From Tannerella sp. (GTDB lineage: Bacteria; Bacteroidota; Bacteroidia; Bacteroidales; Tannerellaceae), in assembly GCA_031276175.1 (NCBI GenBank), contig JAISNP010000049.1:1-44869 (forward strand): 44,869 bases of DNA. The letters are read 5' to 3'. Every line of letters starts with the position of its first letter. Position 1 is the first letter of the stretch. The notes under the pieces are model-generated. The model did no database searches. It saw nothing but the letters and a program-made list of their open reading frames with translations, and had not been told where the DNA came from. Made by a program: the position numbers and the translations under genes. Below are positions 77 to 35,222 of this stretch, one piece after another.

Positions 77-430
77 TAACTTCCCCGGAAGGCCGGCGAA
101 CTTCCCCGGAAGGCCGGCGAACTTCCCCGGAAGGCAGGCGAACTTCCCAGGAAGGCCGCCGAAATTTCCCGGCAGGGCCGCGCACTTCCCCGGCAGGCCG
201 CCGAAATTCCCCGGAAGGCCGCGGAACTGCCCCGGAAGGCCGCCGAACTTCCGGGGAAGGCCGGCGAACTTCCCCGGAAGGCACCGGAACTTCCGGGGAA
301 TGCAACGGAACTTCCGGGGAATGCAACGGAACTTCCGGGGAAAGCAACGGAACTTCCGGGGAAGGCAACGGAACTTCCGGGGAAGGCAACGGAACTTCCG
401 GGGAAGGCCGCCGAAGTTCCGGCGAGATTC
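77..430. repeat. 21-bp tandem array 1 (TTCC/GGAA dyads)
   Basis: About seventeen consecutive units of exactly 21 bp. The anchor base before the AAC/TTCC core falls at 77, 98, 119, 140, 161, 182, 203, 224, 245, 266, 287, 308, 329, 350, 371, 392 and 413, with no insertion or deletion. Each unit holds a short dyad, TTCC-CC-GGAA in the left half and TTCC-GG-GGAA in the right half, often followed by a GGCCGG-like second dyad. Bases drift between units but spacing does not. The array lies 3' of the minus-strand gene that ends at 582. Long open frames cross it on both strands because 21 is a multiple of three; they encode only heptapeptide repeats and are not credible genes. Confidence 0.95.
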
Positions 431-548
431 CATCTCGTCCGGTCTATCACCGGAGATTCCATCTCAAGTTATTAAAATATAAACGGCACATGCGGACAAG
501 TCCCGCACAGATAGAATCTGTGAAATAGACCCGCCGAGATGGAATCTC
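424..548. repeat. Group of 13-bp dyads GAGAT-nnn-ATCTC, copy A
   Basis: Four short inverted repeats of 5-3-5 design sit just right of array 1: GAGAT-TCC-ATCTC at 424-436 and 453-465, CAGAT-AGA-ATCTG at 508-520 and GAGAT-GGA-ATCTC at 536-548. Start-to-start distances are 29, 55 and 28 bp. The same kind of dyad recurs at 16540-16611. No gene or promoter assignment can be made for this stretch. Confidence 0.8.
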
Positions 549-581
549 GTCGGAACGGCGAAAGTGCGGGGAAGGCTGTCG

Positions 582-779
582 TTATTTCCGGTCGCGATCG
601 TCGCCCGCGCGTTTCCTGTTTTTCCAAAGCGGGACGAAAACGATAATCCCCGAAGTAATGATGATGAAAATGGTGTAGAAATCAATCGTAGCGCTATACG
701 TCAGCAGCATATAACACAATATGCTCCAAAGCAGGATGATGCAAACCGCCTGCGTGTTTGTGATTTTACGTCGCGCCAT
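582..779 (-). CDS. Small two-helix membrane protein
   Basis: Sixty-five residues with two hydrophobic stretches, roughly residues 10-28 and 34-52, and a basic Lys/Arg-rich tail, as expected for a small inner-membrane protein. Its start overlaps the end of the DUF2007 gene (766-1164) by 14 bp on the same strand, which suggests translational coupling at the end of the long operon that begins near 6405. No family was recognised. Other frames here are also open, so the call rests on the membrane-protein character and the overlap. Confidence 0.55.
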   Translation of the reverse strand: MARRKITNTQAVCIILLWSILCYMLLTYSATIDFYTIFIIITSGIIVFVPLWKNRKRAGDDRDRK

Positions 780-1164
780 GCTGTGAGGATAAAAGATGCC
801 CGGCGAAAAGCAGCAATGCCAGTAAGCCGAGGGTCAGTGCGATGATGATAAGTATCTGTCGGTCGAAAGCAAATTTGCGCAGGAAGGGAATAAGTTTGAC
901 CGTCGCCGGGTCGTCGCCTCCGTAGTCGGCCTGCAGGATTTCGTCGGGCAGGGGGTAGCCGTATGCTTTCATGATTTCGAGGGCGCGGGGGGCGTCGCTC
1001 TCTTGCAGTTCGACTTTGGCGCCGATGTCTACCCCGCCGCCAAAGACGTTACTGCTGATGCCGTTACGCACATAACATGCGATGCCTTCGCCCCGCAGCA
1101 GCGAGGCCAGTATCTCTGCCCTGTCCGTATATCTGAAATTGGCTATTTCGACGATGCGGTCCAT
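766..1164 (-). CDS. DUF2007-type protein with C-terminal TM helix
   Basis: This 132-residue protein starts with a small alpha/beta domain typical of the putative signal-transducing DUF2007 family: an initial strand, a helix rich in Glu/Leu that follows TDRAEILASLL, then a GEGI-CYVRN strand and a V-L-ESDAPRALEIM helix. A hydrophobic segment at about residues 104-127 would anchor it in the inner membrane. It lies 12 bp after the TIM-barrel gene and overlaps the next small membrane gene by 14 bp, so all belong to one transcription unit. The molecular role of DUF2007 is not established; regulatory-ligand or protein binding is only inferred. Confidence 0.75.
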   Translation of the reverse strand: MDRIVEIANFRYTDRAEILASLLRGEGIACYVRNGISSNVFGGGVDIGAKVELQESDAPRALEIMKAYGYPLPDEILQADYGGDDPATVKLIPFLRKFAFDRQILIIIALTLGLLALLLFAGHLLSSQHGAT

Positions 1165-1176
1165 TCGTCGCCGTGT

Positions 1177-2109
1177 TTATGCCTTCTCCCACTGGTCGCG
1201 CAGGAGTTTGACGGCAGCCGTGACGGTGGCGGCGCGGTCTTCGCTCCGGCAGCCGCATTCGAAGCTGACGTATTTATCGTAGCCGATGAGTTTCAATCCC
1301 TTGAAGCCGTCCGTGTAATTATCCGCCTCGCCGTCTTCACCCGGCATGGCGCGCCGTTTGCGGCTGGCGATGTGGACGTGTTGCAGGTATTCGCCTGCCG
1401 AGATGAAGGCGCCCATGTCGGACGTTTCTTCCCACGTCATATGCCAGAAATCGCCCAGGCACCTGACGCCCGCGTTGCGGATGTCGCGGCAAATGGAAGC
1501 GGCGTCGGCCACGAGGCGCAGGTAAAAGGCTTCGTCGCGGTTGAGCGGTTCGAGTATGATCGTCGTGCCGTGTTGAAGGGCAAACGTGCCGAGCGCGTCG
1601 AACTGTTCGCAGAGGAAATCGCGCGTAGCCTGCGTATGCGGCTTTGCCGGCGTCTGGCTGTTGAAAGCCGGTACGATGATGACGCCCGTCGAGCCGAGTT
1701 CGCCCGCAGCCGTGATGATCTCGTGCATCGTGTCGATACATTCCTGCCGCACTTTTTCGTCTTCCGAAAGGATAAACCCGGAGAATCCGGCGCAGATGGC
1801 GCTCACTTTGATGTTACGGCCGCTGAGCGCTTCTTTGATTTCGCCTGTCCGTCCGGCAAGTCCTCTTCCGCCGGGTTCGAAGCCGGTGACGCCCAGGTTT
1901 TCCATGAAGTCAAACTTTTCCTTCAGGGTTTCGCCCGGAGGCGTGCCTTCCTGGAAGGAGATATTCAGCTTCACATCCTTGCCTTTGCAGCAGGCGCTTT
2001 CGCCGTCCGTACCCGATTTTTCTCCCTTCGTCCCCCCGCAGGCGGACAGGGCGGCGCCGCCGACTGTTGCGGCGGCAGCCCTTAAAAAGTTTCGTCTGTC
2101 CAGTGCCAT
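1177..2109 (-). CDS. Tat-exported sugar isomerase/epimerase-like TIM barrel lipoprotein
   Basis: A 310-residue protein of the xylose isomerase-like TIM-barrel (AP endonuclease 2) superfamily. The N-terminus has a twin-arginine motif RRNFLR and, after a hydrophobic stretch, a lipobox LSAC, so the protein is probably folded in the cytosol, exported by Tat and lipid-anchored. Likely metal and substrate residues lie in LEPLNR, GDFWHM, VHIAS and SFECG, in the usual order for the family. It starts 3 bp after the stop of an oxidoreductase that also has a Tat signal, so the two probably act on one substrate in the periplasm. Homologues act as isomerases, epimerases or, in 3-keto-sugar pathways, lyase-like enzymes; the exact reaction here is not visible. 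Confidence 0.85.
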   Translation of the reverse strand: MALDRRNFLRAAAATVGGAALSACGGTKGEKSGTDGESACCKGKDVKLNISFQEGTPPGETLKEKFDFMENLGVTGFEPGGRGLAGRTGEIKEALSGRNIKVSAICAGFSGFILSEDEKVRQECIDTMHEIITAAGELGSTGVIIVPAFNSQTPAKPHTQATRDFLCEQFDALGTFALQHGTTIILEPLNRDEAFYLRLVADAASICRDIRNAGVRCLGDFWHMTWEETSDMGAFISAGEYLQHVHIASRKRRAMPGEDGEADNYTDGFKGLKLIGYDKYVSFECGCRSEDRAATVTAAVKLLRDQWEKA

Positions 2110-2112
2110 CGG

Positions 2113-3531
2113 TCAGCGCGTTTGGTTGCCCTGGGGTTTTCCGGGAATATGGATATAATCCGGCAATTTGTATTCTTTCCCTGCGCCGTATCCGCTGATG
2201 CTCATCTTCTTCACAAGGTCGATGTCTGTGGGATACAGGTCCAGCGGCGATGCCGTCATTTCGTCCCACGTCGTATACTTGCCCGTGTAAGCCGATTCGC
2301 GTCCCATGATGGCGGCCATGTTGGCCACGGCTGTTTCGGATGCCTGTTCGATCGGTTTGCCGCTGCGGATATGGTTAATCCAGTTGACGTGTTCCAGCGT
2401 GTAGGGGTCGATCTGCTTGAAGCTGGTTTTTTCGGCTTCGTAGTCGTATTTCCAGATTACTTTTCCGGCCAGGTCTTTGATCGTATGTCCGTCCTGAGTC
2501 GACCACGATCCTTTCGATCCCTGGATAAATTCGCCGACGATGCCTTCCGTTTCGTGTACCTGACGGCACATGCTGTGCAGGTGAATACCGTTTTCCATTT
2601 CAAAGTCGATGCTGAAATTGTCGAACTGGTCTCCCGTGACGCGACGCTGCCGCGAGCCGAAGCCCAAGGCCTTTACCGGTTTCAGTCCGGTGAACCATGT
2701 GAATACGTCCAGGTTGTGTACGTGCTGTTCCACGATGTGATCTCCCGACAGCCATGCCCAGTTTACCCAGTCGCGAATCATCCATTCGCAGTCCGACCAT
2801 TCGGGCCGGCGTTCATTGAACCACAGCATTCCGCCGTTCCAGTAAACCGCACCGCCGGTGATTTCGCCGATGGCGCCGTTCATAATCTGCTTGTAAGATT
2901 CTACATAATCGCGCTTGTGGTGGCGTTGCGTACCGGTTACGACGCACAGGTTTTTGGCGGCGGCCTGCTTTGCCGTAGCTACGATGGTACGGTAGCCGAC
3001 GGGGTCTACGCAAATCGGTTTTTCAAGGAAGGAATGTTTTCCCTTTTCGGTAGCGTACTGAAAAATCATCGGACGGAAATTGGGCGGTGTAGCCACGATT
3101 ACCACATCCACGCCGCTGTCGATAACCTGCCTGTAAGCATCCAGCCCGGTGAAGCGCCTGTCTTCCGGGATGTCGACGTTCTTTTCGGTTTTCAGTTTGC
3201 CGGCCAGGTCGTCCACACGGTCTTTGAAGGCATCGCCCAGAGCCGTAATCGTCAAACCGTTTGCCGCGTTCAGGAAATTGATTGCCGCGCCCGAACCGCG
3301 TCCGCCGCAGCCGATAACGCCGGCTTTCAGTTCCTGACCGTCCGCTGCAAAATCTACCAAGTCGGGGACATAATACGTGCCCGGCGCCTTAAGAGGTACG
3401 TTGGCCGAAGCATTGCTGCCTCCGCCGCACGATGTGAATACTGCGGCGCTCCCTGTTCCCATGGCGCCCAATGCTCCGGCCATTGCCGTACTTTTCAGAA
3501 AAGTTCTTCTGTTGATACTTTCTTTCTTCAT
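2113..3531 (-). CDS. Tat-exported Gfo/Idh/MocA family oxidoreductase lipoprotein
   Basis: A 472-residue Gfo/Idh/MocA family enzyme. After a Tat signal (RRTFLK) and a lipobox-like FTSC comes the Rossmann dinucleotide-binding motif GCGGRGSG near residue 75, then VIVATPP and the family EKP motif (LEKPICVDP). The C-terminal half contains GDHIVEQHVHNLDV, carrying the His/Asp residues usually involved in catalysis. Exported members keep a tightly bound NAD(P) cofactor, as in glucose-fructose oxidoreductase. It is directly followed, 3 bp later, by the exported TIM-barrel gene and preceded by the multiheme cytochrome fusion 30 bp upstream. Role inferred: periplasmic oxidation or reduction of a sugar or cyclitol. 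Confidence 0.9.
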   Translation of the reverse strand: MKKESINRRTFLKSTAMAGALGAMGTGSAAVFTSCGGGSNASANVPLKAPGTYYVPDLVDFAADGQELKAGVIGCGGRGSGAAINFLNAANGLTITALGDAFKDRVDDLAGKLKTEKNVDIPEDRRFTGLDAYRQVIDSGVDVVIVATPPNFRPMIFQYATEKGKHSFLEKPICVDPVGYRTIVATAKQAAAKNLCVVTGTQRHHKRDYVESYKQIMNGAIGEITGGAVYWNGGMLWFNERRPEWSDCEWMIRDWVNWAWLSGDHIVEQHVHNLDVFTWFTGLKPVKALGFGSRQRRVTGDQFDNFSIDFEMENGIHLHSMCRQVHETEGIVGEFIQGSKGSWSTQDGHTIKDLAGKVIWKYDYEAEKTSFKQIDPYTLEHVNWINHIRSGKPIEQASETAVANMAAIMGRESAYTGKYTTWDEMTASPLDLYPTDIDLVKKMSISGYGAGKEYKLPDYIHIPGKPQGNQTR

Positions 3532-3561
3532 GATGATTGAGTTTAAAAAAATTGATACATG

Positions 3562-11376: not shown

Positions 11377-11412
11377 TTCAATAAAAGTTTTTAATTAGTA
11401 ATTCGAAAAAAT

Positions 11413-11500
11413 GTCCGGGACGAAAAATTCCGTGGAATTTTCTTCCGTGGAGTGTCCGGGACGAAAAATTCCGTGGAATTTCTCTTTCGCGGAGTGTCTG
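11413..11500. repeat. 41/42-bp array 6 in the btuB-btuG gap
   Basis: A unit beginning GTCCGGGAC starts at 11413 and 11454, and a third, decayed start (GTCTGTCG) follows at 11496, so the spacings are 41 and 42 bp. Each full unit holds two dyads about half a unit apart: GTCC-G-GGAC and ATTCC-GT-GGAAT. This matches the alternating-dyad plan of array 2 with an unrelated sequence. It lies inside an operon, after the btuB stop and before btuG. Confidence 0.85.
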
Positions 11501-11540: not shown

Positions 11541-13547
11541 TCAGTAATCCACGGTTAAGCCTAATCTGAACGCGCGTCCGGGCATCGGGTAGTAGCGGAT
11601 GACGTCATACGTTCTATTGCCGATATTTAGCGCTTCGCCCTGCAGGCGGATGCGGAACCGGCGGAGCCGAAGCGTCCGGTTCACCGAAAGCGTATGCTCC
11701 GCATATCCGCCCATCCGGTTGGCGGCGATGTTTTGCGGCAGGACGTAGCGTTCGCCCGTCAGCGTCAGTATGTAGCCGATGTTTATCCAGGGATTTTCGA
11801 AAGCGGCGGACGCCGTGCCCGAAAAACGCGGCGTGTAGGGTATCTGGTGGCGGTAGCTTTTGCTGCCGGGATTCGTCGCATCCGTGGCATGGCGGTAGCC
11901 GAAGGTGGCCGAGAGCATCAGGAGACATGCGCTGCCGAGGGGCGATTCCGTCGACAGGCTGATGTCCGCGCCTTTGATTTCGACCTTCCCCATGTTCATC
12001 ATTTTGAAGACGTACATCGTCGGGATGGCTACGATTTTATCCGCTACGCGATTGTAATATACGTCCGCCGAAAACGCCGCATACCGCGCCACGGCGGGAA
12101 TCCGCCCGCTCCACGTCAGCCCCACGTTGTACTGCGCCGCCCTTTCGGGCAGGAGATTCGTGTTGCCCATGCGGATGTAATACAGGTCGGTGAACGTCGG
12201 CACGCGGAAGATGTCCCTGTACGAAACCCTCAGCCGCAACGCATCGCCCGCAAAGGGACGGAAGGAGAGGGCGGCAGCCGGCGAGAGGCGGCGTTTGTCG
12301 CCGGGACGCGCCCCCTGCCCTGCGTCGTCTCTCATATACGTAGCCAGCAGGCTGGCCGTGGCCGTGAGCCGCGCGTTTTTAAACTGTGCGGCCACGACCG
12401 TAAGCGACGTCAGGCGCTGCGGCGACAAAAGGGCGACGACGTTGCTCTTGAGCGACGTGTGCGACAAATCGCTGCTCAGCGAGGCCGACCATGCCCCGGC
12501 GGGCGTAAACCACAATCCCGCCGAGCCGTAATATTCCTTCTGCACGTTCCGGTCGGCCGTAAGTCCTTCCGCATACTGCGGATCCATGTTGTGATACAAA
12601 CTGTATGTGCGGTTGAATTTGGCCTGCAGCTGCACGGACAGCGTCCGGCTCAGGGGCGCCCTGCCGTGCGCCTGTACGAAAAAATTCCTGTCCCACAGGC
12701 GTTCCCTTGTGCGGTCGGCATACAGTACGACCGAGCCGGGCAGCCCCCGCTCGGAATCGTAATAATACGCCTTTGCCTGCCACGTCCCCCCGCGCGCAAG
12801 GCGGCCGTACACGTTGGCCTCCGTGCGGAGGGATTGAATGTCGCTGTTCTTACGCATCTCCTTCGTCACGATCCGGCCGTTTGTCAGCGTAAAAGGATAA
12901 TTGCCCCCGGCGCTCAGCCATTCGGCATGAGAAGAGAGGGAGAAAAACTCTCCGAGCTTCCGCTCATAGCGCACGGAAGGATTAAACAGCCCGAACGACC
13001 CGCCCCTGACCTTTACGCGCAGACGGTGCGACCGGTCGGTAAACGCCGGCACGCCGGTGCGGATGTTCAGCGCCCCTGCCGAAGCATACATGCGGGCGGA
13101 CTGGAAAATATCGTCTGTCTGCCCGGCAACGAGCGTGACGCTCTCCACATTGTCCAGCGAGAAGCAGCTGATGTCCACCTGTCCGCGCTGCGCGTCGGTA
13201 ATCGCGATTCCGTCGTAATTGACCGCCGTATGCTGCGAGCCGAGACTGCGCACCGACACGGTTTTCAGTCCGCCGATGCCGCCGTAGTCCTGCACCGTCA
13301 CGCCCGAAAAGCGGCCTACGGCTTCGGACAGTTCCTGCATCCCCAGGCGATCCATCTCCGCGCGATCTATCTGCTGTACGGGCACGCCGGCGCGCAACGC
13401 CGGAAAGCGTACCCGCTCCACCACCTCCACGCCGGAAAGCGTACGGAGGAGCACGGTATCTTTTTCCTGCGATGCCGCCACGACGGCAAACAACAGTCCT
13501 GCGCCGAGCAGTAACTCTTTTCTGTATAATATATCCGACATTTCCAT
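11541..13547 (-). CDS. btuB: BtuB-type TonB-dependent cobalamin receptor
   Basis: A 668-residue outer-membrane TonB-dependent receptor. After the signal peptide the plug domain is recognisable (IDRAEMDRLGMQELSEAVGR, VSVRSLGSQH and NYDGIAITDAQRG), followed by a barrel of about 22 strands ending in LGLTVDY with a C-terminal aromatic residue. Substrate assignment comes from the cobalamin riboswitch about 50 bp upstream of the start and from the btuG gene downstream. It lacks the extra N-terminal carboxypeptidase-like domain of SusC-type receptors. MEMSDI at 13547 or the internal MSDI at 13541 could both be the start. Confidence 0.9.
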   Translation of the reverse strand: MEMSDILYRKELLLGAGLLFAVVAASQEKDTVLLRTLSGVEVVERVRFPALRAGVPVQQIDRAEMDRLGMQELSEAVGRFSGVTVQDYGGIGGLKTVSVRSLGSQHTAVNYDGIAITDAQRGQVDISCFSLDNVESVTLVAGQTDDIFQSARMYASAGALNIRTGVPAFTDRSHRLRVKVRGGSFGLFNPSVRYERKLGEFFSLSSHAEWLSAGGNYPFTLTNGRIVTKEMRKNSDIQSLRTEANVYGRLARGGTWQAKAYYYDSERGLPGSVVLYADRTRERLWDRNFFVQAHGRAPLSRTLSVQLQAKFNRTYSLYHNMDPQYAEGLTADRNVQKEYYGSAGLWFTPAGAWSASLSSDLSHTSLKSNVVALLSPQRLTSLTVVAAQFKNARLTATASLLATYMRDDAGQGARPGDKRRLSPAAALSFRPFAGDALRLRVSYRDIFRVPTFTDLYYIRMGNTNLLPERAAQYNVGLTWSGRIPAVARYAAFSADVYYNRVADKIVAIPTMYVFKMMNMGKVEIKGADISLSTESPLGSACLLMLSATFGYRHATDATNPGSKSYRHQIPYTPRFSGTASAAFENPWINIGYILTLTGERYVLPQNIAANRMGGYAEHTLSVNRTLRLRRFRIRLQGEALNIGNRTYDVIRYYPMPGRAFRLGLTVDY

Positions 13548-13594
13548 TTGACTTATCTTACGCCTTTACCCGCGGCGCAAGGATAACGGGGGAC

Positions 13595-13745
13595 GACGGC
13601 AGGTTTTCTGACTTGTTCTCCTCTTCCGGCGGCCTTCCCGGGACAAACAGCCCAGTGGCCAAAGAGATACCGAGGATTTACAGAACTTACAGCTACGGGT
13701 ATAGTTCCGGCTTTTCACCGGATTCCCTTTTACTAACCGCCTGCG
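13595..13745 (-). ncRNA. Cobalamin riboswitch (btuB leader)
   Basis: On the minus strand, in 5'-3' order, I find GCGGTTAGTA then GGGAATCCGGTGAAAAGCCGG at about 13709-13730, CCCGTAGCTGTAA, GCCACTG at 13653-13659 and the B12 box AGTCAGAAAACCTGCC at 13598-13613 (consensus AGYCAGRAGACCTGCC). These are the conserved blocks of the adenosyl-/methylcobalamin aptamer in the right order and spacing. About 50 nt separate the B12 box from the btuB start, enough to hide the ribosome-entry region when B12 is bound. Confidence 0.95.
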
Positions 13746-13852
13746 AAAGCATTGCGGCTACACCGACATCCACCAACTATGTATATGCTTTCCTCAAAAC
13801 AATCCGAAGATTGCCGGGATTCCGGATCGCTTCCGGAACAGCTTTAAAATAC

Positions 13853-16539: not shown

Positions 16540-16611
16540 CAGATTCAATCTGTGCATCTGTTTATACGGGAGATAGAATCGCCGGTGACAGATTGAACGG
16601 GATAGAATCTC
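16540..16611. repeat. Group of 13-bp dyads GAGAT-nnn-ATCTC, copy B
   Basis: CAGAT-TCA-ATCTG at 16540-16552, GAGAT-AGA-ATCGC at 16570-16582 and GGGAT-AGA-ATCTC at 16599-16611, spaced 30 and 29 bp. It is the same element family and nearly the same spacing as at 424-548. It directly follows copy A of the dispersed repeat. Confidence 0.75.
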
Positions 16612-16856
16612 GTCCCAACTCCGCACAGATACATTGCAAAGAAAATGACTGCTGTATCCGTAAAGATGATGCCGGAGGTATTACAATTCATGCAGGGTAA
16701 CGTACCGCTGCGTAAAGTATCCGGCAAAAGACCATATAATCTTTAAGCCCACGCTATGGCAGTGATAAAACAACGCGATGTTATTTAATTTATGCAATAT
16801 TTAATACTGAAATAACATTATGTCTTTTTCATTCACCTCTCTTTACGAAAACAGAT

Positions 16857-17192
16857 ACACAGTGTTTTTTTATTCCCGACGTCGTCGGCGGAAAAAATAC
16901 ACAGTGTTTTTTTATTCCCGACATTGTCGGCGAAAAAAATACACAGCGCTTTTTTATTGCCGACGTTGTCGAGAGAAAAAATACACAGCGCTTTTTTCTT
17001 CTCGACGCTGTCGGGAGAAAAAATACATAGTGTATTTCTCTTTTTGATGCTGTCGGCATGAAAAAAACATGATGTTTTTCTTGTTTTGATATTGTCGGCA
17101 GTAAAGAAACATGATGTTTTTTCTATTTTGATAATGTCGGCAGTAAAAAAGCGAAGTGTTTTTCTATTCTTAACTATGTCTTAAGAAAAATA
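16857..17192. repeat. 42-bp tandem array 2 with alternating dyads
   Basis: Eight units of exactly 42 bp start at 16857, 16899, 16941, 16983, 17025, 17067, 17109 and 17151. Each carries an AT-flanked ACAC-a-GTGT-like dyad and, about 21 bp further, a CCGAC-nnn-GTCGG dyad. Sequence drifts strongly along the array (ACACAGTG, ACACAGCG, ACATAGTG, ACATGATG), yet no unit gains or loses a base. Decayed relatives of both halves continue to about 17310, including CTGCCGTCGGCAG at 17254-17266. The array fills the gap between the DUF2141 gene end and the DUF4468 gene. Confidence 0.95.
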
Positions 17193-24788: not shown

Positions 24789-24962
24789 ATGGAGAATTTA
24801 TTTATTGACATTAAGAGTAAATTCGAAGCTTTTTCGAAAGACGCTTCATTGCAGATTGAGAAATCGAACAAGGCGGCAGGCACTCGTGCCCGCAAAGCTT
24901 CGCTGGAATTGGAGAAACAGCTGAAAGAGTTCAGGAAAAAATCCCTGGAATTCTCGAAGTAG
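24789..24962 (+). CDS. Histone H1-like (Hc1-type) nucleoid protein, 57 residues
   Basis: A short gene translated directly from the sequence. It encodes 57 residues, MENLFIDIKSKFEAFSKDA at the start, then EKSNKAAGTRARKASLELE and a Lys/Arg-rich end (FRKKSLEFSK). The central GTRARK-SLE motif with flanking amphipathic helices is typical of the small Hc1 (histone H1-like) proteins found as single abundant genes in Bacteroidales. It likely binds DNA non-specifically and helps compact the nucleoid. A good TAnnTTTG element and an untranslated leader of about 40 nt precede it. Array 3 begins about 235 bp downstream. Confidence 0.85.
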   Translation: MENLFIDIKSKFEAFSKDASLQIEKSNKAAGTRARKASLELEKQLKEFRKKSLEFSK

Positions 24963-25194: not shown

Positions 25195-25475
25195 TTTATT
25201 TCCGGCAGTAACCGGATTATTTCCGGCAGTAACCAAGATATTGCGGGCAGTAACCGAATTATTGCGGGCAATAAACGGAATATTGCGGGCAATAAACGAG
25301 ATATTGCGAGCAATAAACGAGATATTGCGGGCAATAAACAGGATATTGCGGGCAATAAACAGGATATTGCGGGCAATAAACAGGATATTGCGGGCAATAA
25401 ACGAGATATTGCGAGCAATAAACAAGATATTGCGGGCAATAAACAAGATATTGCTCGCAATAACCGATTGAGAGG
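25195..25475. repeat. 21-bp tandem array 3 (TATTGC-gg-GCAATA dyads)
   Basis: Thirteen units of exactly 21 bp; the central GG/GA falls at 25204, 25225, 25246, 25267, 25288, 25309, 25330, 25351, 25372, 25393, 25414, 25435 and 25456. The typical unit holds the perfect palindrome TATTGC-GG-GCAATA joined by an AACGAGA- or AACAGGA-like linker. The first two units carry TTCCGGCAGTAA instead and the last has TTGCTCGCAA, so the ends are the most diverged. It lies in the convergent gap between the Hc1 gene and murF. Frames on both strands are open and encode heptapeptides only because the period is seven codons. Confidence 0.96.
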
Positions 25476-25506: not shown

Positions 25507-26793
25507 TTACAACTCTTCCACAATCTGTTCGAGATGAATGCCGTGCGAACCTTTTATCAGGATATGAAAGCCTTCGGGCGGATGATTTTTCAGATGCTTT
25601 TTCAACTTTTCTACGTCGGGGAAGCATGTGAAAATTCCTCCTGCGGCGCCAAAGCGGTTGCCGCAAAGAAATACTTTGTCGAAATCGTACGCCTTCAGTT
25701 TTTCCACAATTTCGGCGTGGAAGCGTGCGCTCTCCGCGCCTAATTCGAGCATGTCGCCCAGAATTACGGCTTTGGGTGCGGCCGGCAGGGAGGCGAAATT
25801 TTTTAAAGCCGCATCCATGCTGCTCGGATTGGCATTATAGGCATCAATAATAAGCGTGTTACGACTCGTTTCCGTACGTTGCGAGCGGTTATTGGACGGC
25901 TCGTAACGGGACACGGCACGGTTAATTACCTCGGCGGGGACATTGAAATAACGCCCGACGGCTATGGCCGCCAGCATATTGCACAGATTATAATCGCCCG
26001 TCATTCGCGTCTCAAGTTTGTATACATCGCCCCTTTGCTCATTCCATTCAAAGCGGAGGAAAGGATGACAGCCGGTTGCCCTGCCGTGAATAAACGCATC
26101 ATCGCTCTCGCCGTAAGTAATTTGTTCAAGTCCGAAGGCCATTTCGCGCAGATGTTCGTTTTCCTTGTGGATAAATACCTTCCCGCCCGTTTTCCGCAAA
26201 CAGTCGTACAGTTCCCCCTTCGCACGGAGTACGCCCTCGAAAGATCCGAATCCTTCCAGATGCGCATATCCCACGTTCGTGATGATGCCGTAGTCGGGGC
26301 GCGCCGTTTCAGCCAGCAATCTTATCTCGTCCGGATGATTGGCGCCCATCTCCACCACGGCCATTTCATGCTCCGGCTTCAGGCGAAGCAACGTGAGCGG
26401 GACGCCGATATGGTTGTTCAGATTACCCTGCGTATAAATCAAGCGATATGAAGCGGATAATACGGCCGCAATCAGCTCTTTCGTCGTAGTTTTCCCGTTG
26501 GTTCCCGTGATGCCGACGACAGGCGTCCCCAAAATACTCCGGTGGAGGCGAGCCAGTTGTTGCAATGTCTGCAAAACGTTTTCCGTGACAATCATACGCG
26601 CGTCGATTTTTACGGCAGGGTCGTCTATTACGGCATATGCCGCACCTGCATCGAGGGCAGCTGCGGCAAAACGGTTCCCGTCGAAAGATTCGCCTTTCAA
26701 CGCGAAGAAAACAGACCCCGGCGGACAGTTCCGGCTGTCGGTTGTCACAACCGGATGATCCCGGTAAATCTGATACAGTTCGGATATGTGCAT
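25507..26793 (-). CDS. murF: UDP-N-acetylmuramoyl-tripeptide--D-alanyl-D-alanine ligase
   Basis: 428 residues from MHISELYQIY at 26793 (the frame stays open 21 codons upstream). MurF adds D-Ala-D-Ala to UDP-MurNAc-tripeptide in the cytosol, the last soluble step of peptidoglycan precursor synthesis. Visible motifs: VVTTDSRNCPPGSVFFALKG (UDP-binding domain), the ATP-binding GITGTNGKTTTKE at about residues 94-106, VVEMGANHPDEI, ITNVGYAHLEGFGS, and IDAYNANPSSM with GDMLELG in the C-terminal domain. It is transcribed away from folP from a shared intergenic region. Its 3' end faces array 3. Confidence 0.96.
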   Translation of the reverse strand: MHISELYQIYRDHPVVTTDSRNCPPGSVFFALKGESFDGNRFAAAALDAGAAYAVIDDPAVKIDARMIVTENVLQTLQQLARLHRSILGTPVVGITGTNGKTTTKELIAAVLSASYRLIYTQGNLNNHIGVPLTLLRLKPEHEMAVVEMGANHPDEIRLLAETARPDYGIITNVGYAHLEGFGSFEGVLRAKGELYDCLRKTGGKVFIHKENEHLREMAFGLEQITYGESDDAFIHGRATGCHPFLRFEWNEQRGDVYKLETRMTGDYNLCNMLAAIAVGRYFNVPAEVINRAVSRYEPSNNRSQRTETSRNTLIIDAYNANPSSMDAALKNFASLPAAPKAVILGDMLELGAESARFHAEIVEKLKAYDFDKVFLCGNRFGAAGGIFTCFPDVEKLKKHLKNHPPEGFHILIKGSHGIHLEQIVEEL

Positions 26794-26822
26794 GAGAATT
26801 GATTTCGACATAAAAACGATAG

Positions 26823-26830
26823 CAAAAATA
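26823..26830 (-). promoter_or_regulatory. -7 element (TATTTTTG) of murF
   Basis: TATTTTTG on the minus strand, 30 bp before the chosen murF start. It supports that start over longer ones. Confidence 0.5.
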
Positions 26831-26851
26831 ACGGATAATGCAGAATTTATA

Positions 26852-26859
26852 TACATTTG
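26852..26859 (+). promoter_or_regulatory. -7 element (TACATTTG) of folP-cdaA
   Basis: TACATTTG on the plus strand, 55 bp before the folP start. With the murF element it makes a compact divergent promoter region. Confidence 0.55.
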
Positions 26860-27747: not shown

Positions 27748-27749
27748 GC

Positions 27750-29737: not shown

Positions 29738-30937
29738 ATGAAAATACTGGTGCTGAATTGCGGAAGCAGTTCAATCAAATACAAACTCTTCGATATGACG
29801 TCGGGAGAAGTGATGGCGCAGGGAGGTATCGAACGGGTCGGGATGGACGGCTCTTTCCTGAAATTAGTCGATGCGAACGGCGAAAAGGTCATCCTCGAAA
29901 AAGATATTCCCGGACACGAACAGGGAATCGGTTTTGTGCTGGACGTATTGACGGATGCCCGTTACGGGTGCATCCGGTCGTTCGACGAAATAAACGCGGT
30001 GGGGCACCGCGTCGTGCACGGCGGCGAAAAATTCTCCTCCAGCATATTGATCACCGACGAAGTCGTCGCCAAAGTCGAAGAATGTTCCGAACTGGCGCAA
30101 CTGCATAACCCCGCCAACCTGAAAGGCATCTACGCCATCCGCAAAATCATGCCCCGGCTGCCGCAGATAGCCGTTTTCGACACGGCTTTCCACCAGACGA
30201 TGCCGGATTATGCCTATATCTACGGCCTGCCGTACGAATTGTACGCCAAATACGGCGTGCGACGCTACGGTTTCCACGGCACCAGCCACCGCTACGTGTC
30301 GCAACGCGCCTGCGAGATACTCGGCCTCCCCTACGAAAAGCAACGCATCATCACGGCGCACGTAGGAAACGGCGGATCCCTCGCCGCCATCAGTAACGGC
30401 AAGTCCGTAGATACCACAATGGGGCTTACGCCGGTAGAAGGCATACTGATGGGCACGCGCTGCGGCGATGTCGACGCAGGAGCCATTTCGTTTATCATGA
30501 ACAGGGAAGGACTGGATGCCGACGGGCTGTCCGACCTCGTCAACAAGCGCAGCGGCGTACTGGGCGTATCGGGCGTATCGTCCGACATGCGCGAAATAGA
30601 AAAAGCCTGCCTCGAAGGGCACGCCCGCGCCCGCCTTGCCATGCAGATATACGTCTACCGCATCAAAAAATACGTCGGCGCCTTTGCCGCAGTGCTGGGC
30701 GGCGCAGACATTCTGGTATTTACCGGCGGCGTGGGCGAAAATCAATGCTCAATGCGCGCGGACGTTTGCCGAGGGCTGGAATTTATGGGCATACGGCTGG
30801 ACGAAAGTAAAAACAGCGTGCGCGGACAGGAAGCCGTCATCAGTACGCCGGACAGCGCTACGACGGTAATCGTTGTGCCCACCGACGAAGAGTACATGAT
30901 TGCTGCCGATACGCAGGCAATCCTGAACGCACAATAG
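29738..30937 (+). CDS. ackA: Acetate kinase
   Basis: 399 residues, the normal length. It transfers the phosphate of acetyl phosphate to ADP, giving acetate and ATP. ASKHA-fold signatures: KILVLNCGSSSIKYKLFD at the N-terminus (signature 1), AVGHRVVHGG, VFDTAFHQTMP, RRYGFHGTSHRYVS (signature 2), HVGNGGSLAAI and FTGGVGEN. It is the second gene of the pta-ackA unit, and a strong bidirectional terminator lies about 100 bp downstream. Confidence 0.97.
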   Translation: MKILVLNCGSSSIKYKLFDMTSGEVMAQGGIERVGMDGSFLKLVDANGEKVILEKDIPGHEQGIGFVLDVLTDARYGCIRSFDEINAVGHRVVHGGEKFSSSILITDEVVAKVEECSELAQLHNPANLKGIYAIRKIMPRLPQIAVFDTAFHQTMPDYAYIYGLPYELYAKYGVRRYGFHGTSHRYVSQRACEILGLPYEKQRIITAHVGNGGSLAAISNGKSVDTTMGLTPVEGILMGTRCGDVDAGAISFIMNREGLDADGLSDLVNKRSGVLGVSGVSSDMREIEKACLEGHARARLAMQIYVYRIKKYVGAFAAVLGGADILVFTGGVGENQCSMRADVCRGLEFMGIRLDESKNSVRGQEAVISTPDSATTVIVVPTDEEYMIAADTQAILNAQ

Positions 30938-31033
30938 CCTGCCGACGGATATTCCTCCGATTGAACTTCTCCGTTTAAAATCATTTTCAATAAATAAAGC
31001 CATGCCGCGAGTATAATCGGGCACGGTACGCCG

Positions 31034-31077
31034 AAAAGAAACGCTTGCACCGAAACCGGTGGCAAGCGTTTCTTTTT
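31034..31077. terminator. Bidirectional terminator after ackA
   Basis: Arms of 15 bases, AAAAGAAACGCTTGC and GCAAGCGTTTCTTTT, flank a loop that itself pairs ACC with GGT. An A-tract on one side and a T-tract on the other let it act from either strand. Confidence 0.85.
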
Positions 31078-31100
31078 CCGTACCGGAAAATGCAGGAAAA

Positions 31101-31250
31101 GAAACATATTTTTTAAAAAATACGAGACTGTCACCAAGAAACACGAGTCTATCATCAAAAAACACGAGTTTATCATCGAAAAACATGTATTTTCTGTTGA
31201 AAGACTCGTGTTTCCCGGCAAAAAAACGTGCCTTTTACCGAAAGGCGCGT
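31101..31250. repeat. 21-bp array 4 (ACGAG/CTCGT)
   Basis: ACGAG-containing units start at 31122, 31143 and 31164, then a changed unit at 31185 (ATGTA) and inverted ones at 31206 (TCGTG) and 31227 (CGTG). All steps are exactly 21 bp. The inverted units can pair with the direct ones (AAACACGAGTC with GACTCGTGTTT), making a long hairpin. The array lies in the convergent gap between ackA and the gene ending at 31350, bounded by terminators on both sides. Confidence 0.85.
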
Positions 31251-31255
31251 TTTTT
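31220..31255. terminator. Bidirectional terminator of the 34173-31350 operon
   Basis: AAAAAACGtGCCTTT pairs with AAAGGCgCGTTTTTT around a TACCG-type loop. A- and T-tracts flank it, so it can stop transcription from both sides. It merges with the last units of array 4. Confidence 0.8.
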
Positions 31256-31349
31256 TTATTCGTGTTATATATATCAAAACCGGTTTTTACGGATGTTGCC
31301 TGTTAAAATTGCCCGGATTCGATATTTAATTTTCCGCATCGAACGCTGT

Positions 31350-31886: not shown

Positions 31887-31908
31887 TGCCGTTCGTATTT
31901 CAGCATGG

Positions 31909-32553
31909 TTAAAAGAAAAACGTCAGGCCGATGTTGCCGGTTGCCGAGGGCTGAAAGGCAAGATCGAAATAATTTGTCGTCGTTTTCGTATCCGCGCTCG
32001 GATTGTTCGTTTTGGAATAAAACTGAAGCCCTCCGATCTGTCCGGTCAGCATAAGCCGGTCGGTGATAAAACAGGCCACTCCGGGAGCAATCATTGCGTA
32101 TAATCCGCTCGCAGAGTAGCTGGTGGTCGTATTACCCTGCTGCGTTTGCTGGCTGCCGAATATCCCGCCCAGCTTTCCGTCGAAAAACAGGCCTGCGCGC
32201 TCGTTGAACATCAGGTAGCGGCGCACGCCGGCTGCAATCCGAAATTCGGGCGTTGCCGTCACCTGATTGTCGGAGCCGGTCTTCTGATTGTCTTTGATGG
32301 TGGAACTGTAACCTATCTCCGCCAGCAGCGCCCACTTGTCGTTCAGCATAAATCCGGCCGAGGGCATAAATCCGATTTTCAGCTCACTTGGGTTGGACGT
32401 GATTGTCGAACCGCTGGTTGTGGCGCTCCGGTTGCTGGAGATATAAGCCGAGCCGGTAATAAAATACTTTTTGCCCTCCATCTGGGCATTTCCTTTAAAC
32501 GATACTGTTGTCAGTATAAGGGCCATTATGACCCAATGCATTTGCTTTTTCAT
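31909..32553 (-). CDS. Outer-membrane beta-barrel protein
   Basis: 214 residues with a signal peptide ending around FKGNAQ. The mature part alternates polar and aromatic/aliphatic residues (KIGFMPSAGFMLNDKWALLAEIGY, FRIAAGVRRYLMF, FFDGKLGGIFG) and ends in GNIGLTFFF with a terminal Phe. This is the signature of small eight-stranded barrels of the OmpA-N/OMP_b-brl type. Function unknown; probably structural or an adhesin. It sits 43 bp after the stop of the seven-repeat AVYWKNG lipoprotein gene. Confidence 0.85.
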   Translation of the reverse strand: MKKQMHWVIMALILTTVSFKGNAQMEGKKYFITGSAYISSNRSATTSGSTITSNPSELKIGFMPSAGFMLNDKWALLAEIGYSSTIKDNQKTGSDNQVTATPEFRIAAGVRRYLMFNERAGLFFDGKLGGIFGSQQTQQGNTTTSYSASGLYAMIAPGVACFITDRLMLTGQIGGLQFYSKTNNPSADTKTTTNYFDLAFQPSATGNIGLTFFF

Positions 32554-32595
32554 TTGTTTGTTATTTAGAATATTAATAATTGGTGTTTATTCGAT

Positions 32596-33615
32596 TCATT
32601 GGTTGGACTGTCTGCGAGGGACTACGGCGATGCCGTAATAATCTTCATCTGCGTTTCCGAGTTTTTCTATCTCACCGTTTTTCCAGTATACGGGATTATA
32701 GCCATCGCTTCCGGCAACATATACATCGTTGCCGTATACGGTGATGGCGTCGGCCGAAGCCCATTCGCCGGGTTTACAGGGTAACTTTGTTTCCCGACCG
32801 TTTTTCCAGTACACGGCATCGTCTCCATCGGCGCCGGCAATATATACATCGCTGCCGGATATGGCTATGGCGGTGCCGCTCATTTCCACAGGTGTCTTGC
32901 TTAACCTTGTTTTCTTTCCGTTTCTCCAGTACACAACATAGTACTCATAATCCCCGTCCGCTTCCCTTCCGGAAATATGTATATCGCTTCCGGAAACGGC
33001 GATGGCATCGGCGACAGCGTCTTCGGATTCTCTCGGCAGCGCCGTTTTCCTGCCGTTTTTCCAGTATACGGCATCATCTCCGTCGTATCCGGACACATAT
33101 ACATCATTGCCGGAAACGGCTATGGCACAGGCGGCGTTAGCGGAAGATTCTACGGGTAGCGCAGTTCTCTTTCCGTTTTTCCAGTACACGGCATCATCCC
33201 CGTCGTATCCGGCAATATATACATCGCTGCCGGATACGGCTATGGCGGCGGCGTAAGAGTCTGGATCATTATTCCCTTCCGATACTTCCGGTAATCTTGT
33301 GAGTCGGCCATTTTTCCAGTACACGGCATGTGAATCATAATTGGGGTCGGTACAATTGCCGACAATATAGATGTCCTCGCCCGATACGGCAATAGCCGTG
33401 GCGTATGACCATTTCAGATCGCCCCACGTTTCCAACTCTTCCATCTCGCCGTTCTTCCAGTAAACGGCCTGATCATCGCTCACTCCGACGACATACACAT
33501 CTACTTCGCCGGACGTTCCCACCACTTCGTCTGCGGGGCTGCTGTCTTTCAGACACCCCGTGAGGCCTGCGCCGATAACGACTGCAAGCGCGGCATGTAA
33601 AAACTTCTTTTTCAT
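32596..33615 (-). CDS. AVYWKNG-repeat lipoprotein, long paralogue
   Basis: 339 residues: a signal peptide with lipobox LTGC, then about seven tandem repeats of roughly 40 residues. Each runs AVYWKNG, a variable arm, A-AIAVSG-DVYIAG-DGD. The pattern suggests a beta-propeller or repeated beta-sheet surface protein. The C-terminus ends GIAVVPRRQSNQ. It is a tandem paralogue of the gene at 33655-34173: N- and C-termini are nearly identical and only the number and arms of inner repeats differ. Its partner ligand is unknown. Confidence 0.85.
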   Translation of the reverse strand: MKKKFLHAALAVVIGAGLTGCLKDSSPADEVVGTSGEVDVYVVGVSDDQAVYWKNGEMEELETWGDLKWSYATAIAVSGEDIYIVGNCTDPNYDSHAVYWKNGRLTRLPEVSEGNNDPDSYAAAIAVSGSDVYIAGYDGDDAVYWKNGKRTALPVESSANAACAIAVSGNDVYVSGYDGDDAVYWKNGRKTALPRESEDAVADAIAVSGSDIHISGREADGDYEYYVVYWRNGKKTRLSKTPVEMSGTAIAISGSDVYIAGADGDDAVYWKNGRETKLPCKPGEWASADAITVYGNDVYVAGSDGYNPVYWKNGEIEKLGNADEDYYGIAVVPRRQSNQ

Positions 33616-33654
33616 CTCTTTTGTTATTAATTTATATAATTGGTTTTACTCGAT

Positions 33655-34173
33655 TCATTGATTATCCTGATTGCGGGGGACTACAGCGATGCCGTGATAC
33701 TTTTCATCTTCGTTTCCGAGTTTTTCTATCTCGCCATTTTTCCAATAAACGGCATCGCCCCCGTCGTGTCCGGTAATATATACATCGTTGCCGGATACGG
33801 CGATGGCATCGGCGGAAGAGAAAAGATTCGAGGAATTCAGAAAGGGCAGCCTTGTTATCCGGCCGTTTTTCCAGTACGAGGCAGCTATATTATCATCGGA
33901 TTTGTACCAGCCTCTTCCGGCAATATATACATCCTCGCCCGACACGGCAATAGCGCCGGCTATCGCCCAATTCATGCCATCCGTTTCCAGTTCGATCATT
34001 TCGCCGTTCTTCCAATAGACGGCCTGATCGTCATCATTCTGTCCGACGACATAGACATCTACTTCGCCGGACGTTTCCACCACTCCGTCTGCGGGGCTGC
34101 TGTCTTTCAGACATCCCGTGAGGCTTGCGCCGATAACGATCGCAAGCGCGGCTTGTAAAAACTTCTTTTTCAT
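33655..34173 (-). CDS. AVYWKNG-repeat lipoprotein, short paralogue
   Basis: 172 residues from MKKKFLQAALAIV (the upstream MHM gives two more). It has the same signal peptide and LTGC lipobox and the same SSPADGVVETSGEVDVYVVG start as the long paralogue, but only about three AVYWKNG repeats before the shared end GIAVVPRNQDNQ. The gap between the genes (39 bp) and the region after the long paralogue share sequence (CGATTCATTG), so gene and flank were probably duplicated together. It is the first gene of the operon to 31350. Confidence 0.85.
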   Translation of the reverse strand: MKKKFLQAALAIVIGASLTGCLKDSSPADGVVETSGEVDVYVVGQNDDDQAVYWKNGEMIELETDGMNWAIAGAIAVSGEDVYIAGRGWYKSDDNIAASYWKNGRITRLPFLNSSNLFSSADAIAVSGNDVYITGHDGGDAVYWKNGEIEKLGNEDEKYHGIAVVPRNQDNQ

Positions 34174-34179
34174 GTGCAT

Positions 34180-34650
34180 GATATTAAAATATTCCCCCTA
34201 CTCATCAGGCTTTTCGGACTCGCCGCGTTTTTTGAATGGTCTCTGCCTCCATTGCGCCGTGCGCATACAACTTTTCTTTCGTTGTTCTCATTGTTTTATC
34301 CCTGGTACGTGTCGGGGCGCAACCTCTAAACTCTGATTTGTTGTTAATCCGTTTTCGATTTTAGACAAATAAAAAAAAGCGCAGGCAAAACTCTTTTTTA
34401 TCTGTTTTCTGAGGTTCTAGACTACCTTGCAACCAAATAAACGAGTAAAGCCTACGCCGTGAGGCGCGAGCGTCTTCGCTTTACTCTTGGTTGCATTTTG
34501 AAATTGTCTAGATTTCAGAAAACCAGATGTAAGCTATAACGCTTTTTCCAATATGTCTTAATAATATGTGCGCATCATCGCACAATTTTTCTTTTATCTC
34601 ATAGTCAAATCTGTTTTATCATTCAACTTTTCGTTTTTTCTCGAAAATCC
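34180..34650. other. 470-bp gene-free region with long inverted repeat
   Basis: No credible gene. It holds the long inverted repeat at 34401-34527, a TTTATTTG sequence on the minus strand near 34363 (one mismatch from TAnnTTTG) that may drive the lipoprotein operon, and a small hairpin GTGCG-catcat-CGCAC at about 34569-34584 followed by a T-rich run. Confidence 0.6.
34401..34527. repeat. Long interrupted inverted repeat (about 127 bp)
   Basis: Three successive blocks pair in order: TCTG-TTTTCTGA with TTCAGAAAA-CCAGA, TTCTAGAC with GTCTAGA, GCAACCAA with TTGGTTGC and GAGTAAAGC with GCTTTACTC, around a GC-rich loop near 34451-34476. If transcribed it would fold into one long stem with internal bulges. 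It could be the terminator of the gene ending at 34651, a structured RNA or a small non-autonomous element. Confidence 0.8.
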
Positions 34651-34965
34651 TTACCGTTTGTCGTCAATTCCGAACTCGCGCCACGACGACTGCGGCATGT
34701 CTAACTTGATGATTTTGCGGGCTTCGGCGGCTTTTTTCAGCATGGCCTCAAACGCGGCGTCAAACTCTTCGGTTTTTTCCTTGAGTTTGGCCTTGAGCGT
34801 TTCCTGTTCGGTGTTCAACTTAATGCACGCATCCGTGCAGGCCTGTAGTACGTCGGCAAAAGCGGTGTCGATTTTGCGTTGCGCCAGTATATCCTGATGC
34901 GCCCTGATGCCGTTCACCATTACTCCGGTGTCGGCTACTTCCTGTGCTTGAGTTTTACGTCCCAT
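34651..34965 (-). CDS. Conserved hypothetical coiled-coil-like protein
   Basis: 104 residues from MGRKTQAQEVADTGVMVNG at 34965, the start right after a TAnnTTTG element; the longer open frame upstream runs through array 5 and is discarded. The protein is helical and rich in Lys, Glu and Ala, with likely coiled coil from about residue 45 to 85 (KLNTEQETLKAKLKEKTEEF). The C-terminus ends SWREFGIDDKR. I do not recognise a named family. Confidence 0.75.
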   Translation of the reverse strand: MGRKTQAQEVADTGVMVNGIRAHQDILAQRKIDTAFADVLQACTDACIKLNTEQETLKAKLKEKTEEFDAAFEAMLKKAAEARKIIKLDMPQSSWREFGIDDKR

Positions 34966-35002
34966 AATCCGTTCGTTTTTTATTGTGAAAATTATTCTTG
35001 CG

Positions 35003-35010
35003 CAAAGATA
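35003..35010 (-). promoter_or_regulatory. -7 element (TATCTTTG), leftward gene
   Basis: TATCTTTG on the minus strand, 38 bp before the start at 34965. Array 5 begins about 45 bp upstream of it. Confidence 0.65.
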
Positions 35011-35044
35011 TATCTTTTTTTCGTGAAATATTATGCGGACATTA

Positions 35045-35222
35045 AAGTTTATTTGTACTCCTTGGAAATACAGGTGTACAGAGGCAAAATACGGGCGGAT
35101 TCTTTCGAAACGGAAGAGTACTTTTGGAAAGTGCAGGTGTACTTTGAAACAGTACGGGTGTACCGGGGCAAAGTACGGATGTACTGTTACGGAGTACAGG
35201 TGTACCGAAACAAAATCCGGAT
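35045..35222. repeat. 21-bp array 5 (GTACA-gg-TGTAC dyads) between divergent promoters
   Basis: Eight steps of exactly 21 bp: the right arm GTAC, or its drifted form, falls at 35055, 35076, 35097, 35118, 35139, 35160, 35181 and 35202. The best units hold the palindrome GTACA-GG-TGTAC. The array fills the space between two divergent TAnnTTTG promoters (35003 leftward, 35332 rightward), where phased binding sites could act on both. Confidence 0.93.

Follow-up and report, generated by a model that had tools for sequence, protein, structure and literature searches.

The window analysed here is the 44,869-nucleotide contig C108 (JAISNP010000049.1) of a Tannerella-like metagenome-assembled genome (MAG; 2,794,297 bases in 145 contigs). 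It carries six arrays of short tandem units that differ in sequence and share a unit length of about 21 bp or twice that. The closest named relatives of its murF-like Mur ligase come from four Tannerella sp. MAGs (74-80% identity), followed by Parabacteroides (56-61%); the isolate codes of these MAGs resemble those of termite-gut samples. All six arrays are present near the positions given in a preliminary description of this DNA and have the geometry it reported: in each, none of 200 dinucleotide-preserving shuffles reached the observed self-match maximum. Tandem Repeats Finder (TRF, score at least 40) detects five of them, while array 6 is too diverged for the program and its 21-bp register becomes readable when the units are written out.

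Array 1 (61..430) consists of about 17 GC-rich units of 21 bp, TTCCCGGGAAGGCCGCCGAAC, and over 77-430 matches itself best at a lag of 21 (85% identity). A DUF2007 gene lies to its right (766-1164, minus strand), and its left neighbour is past the contig end. Array 2 (11412..11500), flanked by two minus-strand genes for a DUF5074 protein and a TonB receptor, holds 2.1 units of 41-42 bp with several small dyads (inverted repeats) per unit and without a 21-bp sub-period; its best lags over 11413-11500 are 41 and 42 (68% and 61% identity). Array 3 (16855..17192) comprises eight units of 42 bp (best lag 42 over 16857-17192, 79% identity), in which two different dyads, ACACAGTGT and CCGACGTTGTCGG, have their centres 21.0 bp apart. 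Array 4 (25195..25475) is built of about 12-13 units of 21 bp, TATTGCGGGCAATAAACAAGA (best lag 21, 87% identity), and lies where a short Hc1 histone-like gene (24789-24962, plus strand) and the Mur ligase gene (25507-26856, minus strand) converge. We note that this histone-like gene, encoding 57 aa with a Pfam Hc1 match at E 1.2e-20, was not called by our gene script. Array 5 (31101..31256), also convergent and 3' of the acetate kinase gene (29738-30937, plus strand), keeps a 21-bp register over about 150 bp (31101-31250, best lag 21, 58% identity) and terminates in an intrinsic-terminator-like hairpin with a T run (31220-31256); terminator-like sites overall number 13 between 25000 and 36500, against 15.5 expected. 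Array 6 (35045..35222) has about eight diverged 21-bp units, several with GTAC-N4-GTAC, and its best lags are 42, 21 and 63 (57, 56 and 55% identity). It is located upstream of a plus-strand gene (35391-35705) and wholly within the 5' part of a called minus-strand open reading frame (ORF, 34651-35226). An in-frame ATG at 34965, beyond the array, may be the true start; it would give a 104-aa product and leave the array outside the ORF.

The preliminary description had placed all six arrays between genes, which stands for the five outside called genes and fails for array 6. It had also called their sequences private. Arrays 4 and 3 have relatives on contig C116 and at locus L208, respectively, and array 1 resembles a unit at L206; across the first 592 kb of our genome sample, 66 array rows fall into 51 sequence families, the largest of three members. 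In the window arrays the entire unit repeats at one lag, unlike the spacers of clustered regularly interspaced short palindromic repeats (CRISPR; no CRISPR finder was applied). The window also contains a cobalamin riboswitch (13581-13782, minus strand) upstream of the TonB receptor gene (11541-13547) and a DUF805 RNA (34190-34257, minus strand); ARAGORN found no tRNA gene in it.

To place these arrays in their genome, we surveyed 61 pieces including the window, or 860,476 of 2,794,297 bases (31%), picked by contig number except for C108, C52 and C116, which were prior search hits; C85 and C90 contributed two stretches apiece. Genes were called by a simple codon-usage script with arrays masked, which misses short genes and makes nearest-gene distances approximate. 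At a TRF score of at least 60, 108 arrays with a period of at least 15 were found, 98 of them intergenic and 10 inside called genes. The intergenic periods are 21 (32 arrays), 42 (23), 23 (9), 63 (6), 22 (4), 41 (4), 84 (3), 85 (3), 40 (2), 30 (2) and 123 (2), with single arrays at 28, 44, 46, 54, 62, 64, 120 and 477. In fact, 90 of the 98 fall on a ladder of four bins (20-24, 40-47, 61-69 and 82-88 bp) that covers 29 of the 116 integer periods between 15 and 130. Intergenic arrays of period at least 19, nearly all on this ladder, make up 12.7% of the sampled intergenic DNA (21,401 bp).

A lag scan that does not use TRF (intergenic stretches self-matching at 72% or more over 42 bases, lags 10-130) reveals the same ladder. 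Among 333 stretches, lags of 21, 42, 63, 84, 105 and 126 occur in 49, 51, 36, 44, 32 and 40, respectively. Minor ladders run on 22 (lags 22, 44, 66, 88 and 110 in 4, 3, 3, 3 and 3 stretches) and on 23 (23, 46, 69, 92 and 115 in 8, 8, 7, 5 and 3); the remaining lags seen in at least three stretches are 41, 82 and 123 (7, 5 and 5), 43, 64, 85 and 127 (6, 4, 4 and 3), and 14 (3). The same scan of 601 genes yielded no lag present in three or more of them. The spread of periods is thus far from even, and the claim of one shared period over many sequences is borne out.

Arrays with a period near 42 bp (21 rows of period 39-48 in the first sample) are of two kinds. Ten rows are doublets of a 20-22-bp unit with a best half-unit identity of 60-90%, while in the other 11 (10 arrays, two rows being one) the halves are at most 45% alike and the period is still 41 or 42. 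Because these unrelated halves also step by 41 or 42, the double step is not merely a higher-order repeat of a 21-bp unit. The lock extends to small arrays as well: of 36 with fewer than 2.6 copies, 20 are on the ladder, at 21 (7), 22, 23 (2), 40, 41, 42 (3), 46 and 84-85 (4), 11 have periods of 13-15, and the remainder are at 28, 30, 120, 123 and 477. The period-85 arrays (L119 7309, L123 15336, L190 8086) equal four 21-bp units plus one base. The 54-bp unit (L125 12932-13283, L188 6626-6699) matches about 11 non-array places at up to 99% identity and is perhaps a dispersed mobile repeat.

A gene made of repeats only would count as intergenic under our script, and hence we tested whether the arrays are translated, 21 bp being seven codons whose reading frame would be kept. 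Periods are divisible by three in 71 of the 98 intergenic arrays, arrays of this kind are mildly stop-poor (4.5 open frames versus 4.03, standard deviation 0.12, in dinucleotide shuffles; 38 families), and array 6 sits inside a called ORF. However, the other 27 have periods that are no multiple of three, and their units, trimmed to 21 bp, have 4.22 open frames. Codon usage in the best frame equals that of shuffled units (0.185 versus 0.172, standard deviation 0.021), and no 3-bp rhythm is present in the variation (mean z 0.05, 36 arrays). When ten array ORFs were compared with Pfam, five had no match, and the other five hit nothing but unrelated families, often of coiled-coil type and in some cases above the cut-off, hits that we judged spurious; no common start or leader is visible among them. 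The ORF of array 4 matches a plant antifreeze beta-roll (E 2.9e-11) by virtue of a 7-residue rhythm, and it extends antisense into the Mur ligase gene. In agreement with the preliminary description, which had doubted a coding role, we reject translation as the main cause and give it very little credence, the mild stop depletion being left unexplained. Stop triplets and TA steps are rarer in the divisible-by-three arrays of this genome than in shuffles or other intergenic DNA, and arrays of other periods show no such lack.

The arrays recur in relatives, for which stretches of mostly about 20 kb were sampled, mainly around Mur ligase search matches, and intergenic arrays of period at least 15 were counted at a TRF score of at least 60. 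Ladder arrays account for 13 of 18 in the same genus (20 stretches, 389 kb), 11 of 11 in Tannerellaceae including Parabacteroides (8 named pieces, 97 kb) and 27 of 41 in other Bacteroidales (43 named pieces, 746 kb). In the last group the commonest period is 22 (14 arrays), beside which three 32-bp arrays and one 52-bp array are inconspicuous. By genome, a ladder array was present in the sampled pieces of 8 of 15 other genomes of the genus, and none was seen in the remaining 7 (14-40 kb each). Outside Bacteroidales (Chryseobacterium, Dyadobacter and others; 28 pieces, 505 kb) the count is 1 of 4, 50 kb of E. coli contained no array, and 16 other Bacteroidales families gave 0 of 1 in 20 stretches of 341 kb in all, which is weak evidence of absence. 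At a TRF score of 50 the controls show a few two-copy repeats of 21-23 bp, for example at the Elizabethkingia and Chryseobacterium loci L104, L105 and L113. Similarly, the lag scan of named Bacteroidales peaks at 22 (15 stretches) and 44 (12), with lesser counts at 24 (7), 16, 21 and 32 (6 each) and 14 and 40 (4 each), and that of the non-Bacteroidales control gives single stretches at 45, 48, 101 and 108. Taken jointly, the named Bacteroides, Phocaeicola, Prevotella-like and Parabacteroides genomes thus have arrays of this kind with a mode of 22. Arrays of this kind were also found in isolates, namely Bacteroides caecigallinarum, Hoylesella buccalis, Phocaeicola intestinalis and Parabacteroides An277, the last with intergenic periods of 40, 40, 42, 82, 21, 22 and 23. 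Our genome is a metagenome assembly, which could in principle generate such patterns by chance or as an artefact; given the shuffles, the lag scan and these isolate genomes, the probability of that is practically negligible.

The distribution also bears on the idea that the arrays are mobile palindromes of the repetitive extragenic palindromic (REP) type that owe their spread to a RAYT (Y1) transposase. A single Y1_Tnp match exists in the genome, next to REP-like repeats and a 41-bp array, and of 24 sites with the pattern GAGAT-N1-4-ATCTC, 9 are no more than 150 bp away from an array, compared with 13% of non-array intergenic DNA. In contrast, Y1_Tnp occurs in 9 of 25 genus genomes, and G015, which is 99% complete and has arrays, lacks a match. 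The domain is present in 13 of 16 genomes of other families, whose samples showed no intergenic ladder array, and the array sequences are not one dispersed family. Spread by such a transposase is, in our view, scarcely credible. The GAGAT-N-ATCTC palindromes themselves (24 sampled sites, all outside called genes) flank the sole Y1_Tnp match (L200, G000:C38 near 14806), and by eye the family is also seen in the window at 421-560 and 16540-16620.

Within the genome, arrays favour convergent regions. Considering regions of at least 60 bp between called genes, arrays are present in 18 of 37 convergent regions versus 45 of 258 others (Fisher p=6.6e-5), the latter comprising 20 of 105 and 13 of 87 co-directional and 12 of 66 divergent regions. 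The bias persists among regions of at least 350 bp (13 of 18 convergent versus 38 of 96 others, p=0.018). Ladder arrays fill 28.7% of convergent intergenic DNA versus 8-11% elsewhere, and in co-directional regions 25 of 35 arrays are closer to the 3' end of the upstream gene. Other named Bacteroidales have 9 arrays in 62 convergent regions, compared with 5 in 75, 5 in 127 and 6 in 106 of the rest.

Many units are palindromic. A significant six-pair dyad (p at most 0.05; column permutation, 60 each) is found in 49 of 97 arrays, against about 5 expected. The preliminary description had assigned an inverted repeat to most units of five arrays; dyads are indeed above chance, and array 5 has none within its unit, its arms pairing across the whole array. 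Among the 40 arrays that score lowest for dyads, 26 have a primary period of 21, some of the low scores stemming from single-base slips of register in 64- and 85-bp arrays; the lock on length is thus more widespread than the dyad. Analysis of consensus units of 19-25 bp gives a mean stem of 4.53 versus 3.44 when shuffled in our genome (30 arrays) and of 4.26 versus 3.25 in other named Bacteroidales (23 arrays), with no excess in the same-genus sample (eight arrays, 3.38 versus 3.33). As RNA (pieces of 106-150 bases), arrays 2-6 fold better than shuffles on both strands (z -2.9 to -8.6), while array 1 does not (z -0.67 and -0.28). At minimum energy, arrays 1, 3 and 4 adopt long nested hairpins, since palindromic units can pair with each other. 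In the 23-bp array at L205 (12867-13130), inspection by eye suggests that a stem was swapped for new ones while the old loop AAGCGTT persists as a linker.

The spacing of dyads raises the possibility of a DNA-binding protein that reads the shape of dyads and not their letters, occupies adjacent sites of about two turns each and thereby keeps the spacing. Different dyads alternate with centres 21.0 bp apart in array 3, its L208 relative and L213 (partly related dyads), and L147 also has alternating dyads, their centres read by eye; in others of about 42 bp with unrelated halves, the dyads are irregularly placed or no dyad with 4 pairs was detected. The distance between dissimilar dyads has its maximum at precisely 21.0 bp (18 pairs, many from the same few arrays, versus 0-7 at other half-bp distances from 19 to 23.5), and dyad mismatches have no preferred strand. 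Such a protein would explain the 21.0-bp spacing of different dyads best. However, half of the arrays lack a significant dyad, the mode in other genera is 22, no letters are clearly common around the dyad centre, and there is no clear bend signature. No candidate emerged beyond the Hc1 histone-like gene by array 4, and none was specifically sought. We consider a protein of this kind unlikely. A peak in dyad spacing at 10.5, 31.5 and 52.5 bp was taken as a by-product of two symmetry centres per unit and was not used.

The preliminary description had gone further and related the period to helical phasing as such, a reading that these data do not uphold. Its proposed check foresaw periods of 31-32 and 52-53 bp too; these are missing among the sampled intergenic arrays of this genome (the nearest are 30, 30, 28 and 54). 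Separate ladders run on 22 and 23, other genera jointly peak at 22, and most of the arrays with the weakest dyads are locked to 21 all the same. Bending or gyrase-type wrapping was likewise dropped: GC power at 10.5 bp is raised 1.54-fold (z 4.1) against permuted columns and only 1.2-fold (z 1.3) against random intergenic 21-mers. A 3.5-bp component is also raised against random intergenic 21-mers (1.4-1.6-fold, z 2.1-3.6) and is unexplained.

Comparison of units shows how the arrays change. Within arrays (units up to 100 bp) we counted 18,125 matches, 1,385 substitutions and 35 indel bases, 3 of the latter in array 1, with the caveat that TRF itself disfavours indels; the reported lack of indels is thus nearly, but not strictly, correct. 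In two chosen sets, changes in the two arms are paired. Nine units of one array (L127) have 85.2% of cells paired versus 64.6% when shuffled and a covariation score of 0.528 versus 0.176, and 13 units (11 distinct) from three arrays and one solo dyad have 84.8% versus 77.3% and 0.240 versus 0.131; none of 500 shuffles reached any of these values.

Between species, arrays were compared downstream of murF. Two stretches titled Phocaeicola (L055 and L058, murF 90.9% identical) have four 22-bp units each in one-to-one correspondence, with 9 substitutions and no indel in 90 bp. Bacteroides caecigallinarum (L057) also has four 22-bp units, with a shared ACACG-NN-CGTGT core and outer arms that differ on both sides; L068 has a single dyad at this site, and L048, L074 and L103 have no such array downstream of murF. 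The units of L055, L058, L057 and L068 make up the 13-unit set above. Across 66 murF loci with enough sequence, 14 have an array starting within 700 bases downstream (period at least 12, TRF score at least 40, coding or not; two of the 14, L039 and L011, are one locus counted twice), with periods of 21, 22, 42 or 63 in 12 and of 15 and 165 in the others. In Tannerella relatives arrays again lie 3' of murF (L040, L041) or ackA (L096) with unrelated letters, and are absent from other such sites. The proposed check of presence and absence at individual loci shows arrays gained and lost between species, and at some loci recurring with unrelated sequence. In genome G047, the arrays at L040 (9552-9942) and L240 (112-167) belong to one 21-bp family and have about 19 and about 3 units, respectively, between flanks that match at 82-84% over some 110 bp on each side. 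To judge from these sequences, the pair appears to be a natural case of growth by whole units. Copy number thus varies between related copies here, yet is 4 and 4 in L055 and L058.

These observations are compatible with a purely mutational origin, in which a replication or repair process would duplicate DNA near two helical turns, prefer short palindromes and perfect their arms by template switching, and in which convergent sites would be occupied because little is lost there. The ladder position of 20 of the 36 small arrays, the lock to 21 of most arrays lacking a clear dyad, the whole-unit growth suggested by L040 and L240, and the appearance and disappearance of arrays between species all favour it. 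In fact, for arrays that lack a dyad or have two copies, it accounts for the lock no less well than the reading developed below. It leaves a step of 21-22 rather than 31-32 unaccounted for. Furthermore, the roughly 40:1 ratio of substitutions to indel bases, which has no neutral control and is subject to the same TRF caveat, and the equal unit number of L055 and L058 suggest a kept length, and no lag recurs in three of 601 genes, where in-frame 21-bp duplications might be tolerated. We regard a solely mutational origin as a substantial possibility, nearly as likely as the reading that follows.

The interpretation that we tentatively favour, without holding it to be probable, is that the arrays are two-strand 3'-end elements akin to REPs and bacterial interspersed mosaic elements (BIMEs), free in sequence, grown by tandem duplication and stepping near two helical turns. 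Each unit, or the whole array as one long hairpin, would fold whichever strand is transcribed, and an array between genes may end, stabilise or insulate transcripts arriving from both sides. Units would arise and multiply by tandem duplication, one at a time, with two-unit steps in the case of large dyads or of two that alternate; selection would then keep dyads and unit length while the letters drift. This reading takes up what was observed directly: tandem, often palindromic units locked in length (about 21 bp here, 22 most commonly in relatives) and not in letters, their placement between genes with a convergent bias, indel-free one-to-one units in one species pair, and paired arm changes in the two chosen arrays.

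Several observations weigh against this reading. No significant dyad is present in 48 of 97 arrays. Divergent regions hold arrays as well, the convergent bias may merely reflect promoter-free DNA, and of the 11 co-directional arrays seen in other named Bacteroidales, only 5 are closer to the 3' end. The two sets with paired arm changes were chosen by hand, their units are related and the dyad was read off the same sequences; two of five measures in the 13-unit set match shuffles (both-side changes 265/500, further pair types 184/500), and over all 47 dyad arrays the gain in pairing is small (88.9% versus 87.0%). Paired changes can also result from template switching in replication (PMC8794818). 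Finally, the wobble that a hairpin in sense-strand RNA would leave is absent, which also tells against selection on RNA alone: single changes are in excess for G-T (91 versus 65 for A-C; 36 versus 18 mismatch cells in convergent arrays), but orienting the arrays by transcription removes this excess, with 44 sense-tolerated and 42 antisense-tolerated G-T/A-C mismatch cells in co-directional arrays. We note that none of these readings accounts for a step of 21 here versus 22 in relatives, or for the lack of three-turn steps here.

Several known systems invite comparison. In one account, REPs and BIMEs are short intergenic palindromes, some in tandem clusters, that lie 3' of genes and for the most part between ORFs in convergent or co-directional order; REPs form families with GTAG/CGTC tags, and they are linked to RAYT transposases (PMC3733652). 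The arrays are likewise short and intergenic with a convergent and 3'-end bias, if with a significant dyad in only half of the cases; unlike REPs and BIMEs, they differ in sequence, their unit length is locked at 21-22 bp, and their presence does not track the transposase. Another comparison is offered by Porphyromonas gingivalis, itself a Bacteroidales species. Its BrickBuilt element, a minisatellite and miniature inverted-repeat transposable element, is described as intergenic, with tandem 23-nt units, strain-variable copy number and one repeated sequence with leader and tail, in 19 elements in one strain (PMC4596501). Here, in contrast, unrelated sequences share a period, mostly 21 or 42 bp (leaders and tails were not searched for). 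Palindromic candidate RNAs of Bacteroidetes form structures on both strands, 230 of 250 being predicted intrinsic terminators; the word "tandem" is absent from the text of that paper, whereas our arrays are tandem (PMC8040213). Like minisatellites and variable number tandem repeats, the arrays are tandem, intergenic and variable in copy number. Minisatellite periods usually vary by locus, whereas those found here are quantised. Regular spacing is shared with CRISPR, which has constant repeats and changing spacers that these arrays lack, and with iterons, which are spaced at about two turns but repeat a single sequence at a single origin. Neither system accounts for as many as 98 intergenic arrays within 31% of a genome.

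Both REP arrays and minisatellites are known kinds; what would be new is a class set by unit length rather than by sequence. In openly licensed literature, as represented by titles and abstract openings, no class sharing a 21/22-bp period and defined by length was found, and we know of no class of repeats defined in this way. A wider interpretation, possible though rather doubtful in our estimation, is that the arrays form a sequence-independent, length-quantised repeat system, in which a dedicated process or a DNA-organising protein would create or keep palindromic arrays between genes in Tannerella-like bacteria as well as in Bacteroides, Phocaeicola, Prevotella and Parabacteroides, with a step of about two helical turns that is lineage-specific (21 versus 22).

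If true, this would be a repeat class whose defining feature is geometry and not sequence. Classification of repeats normally goes by sequence, and a class with one length rule and no sequence rule would hardly be revealed by homology searches. A mutational step, if that is what it is, would imply an unknown duplication mechanism; a selected step would imply a structural code, at transcript ends or on the DNA, in gut Bacteroidales, a group with some culturable members.

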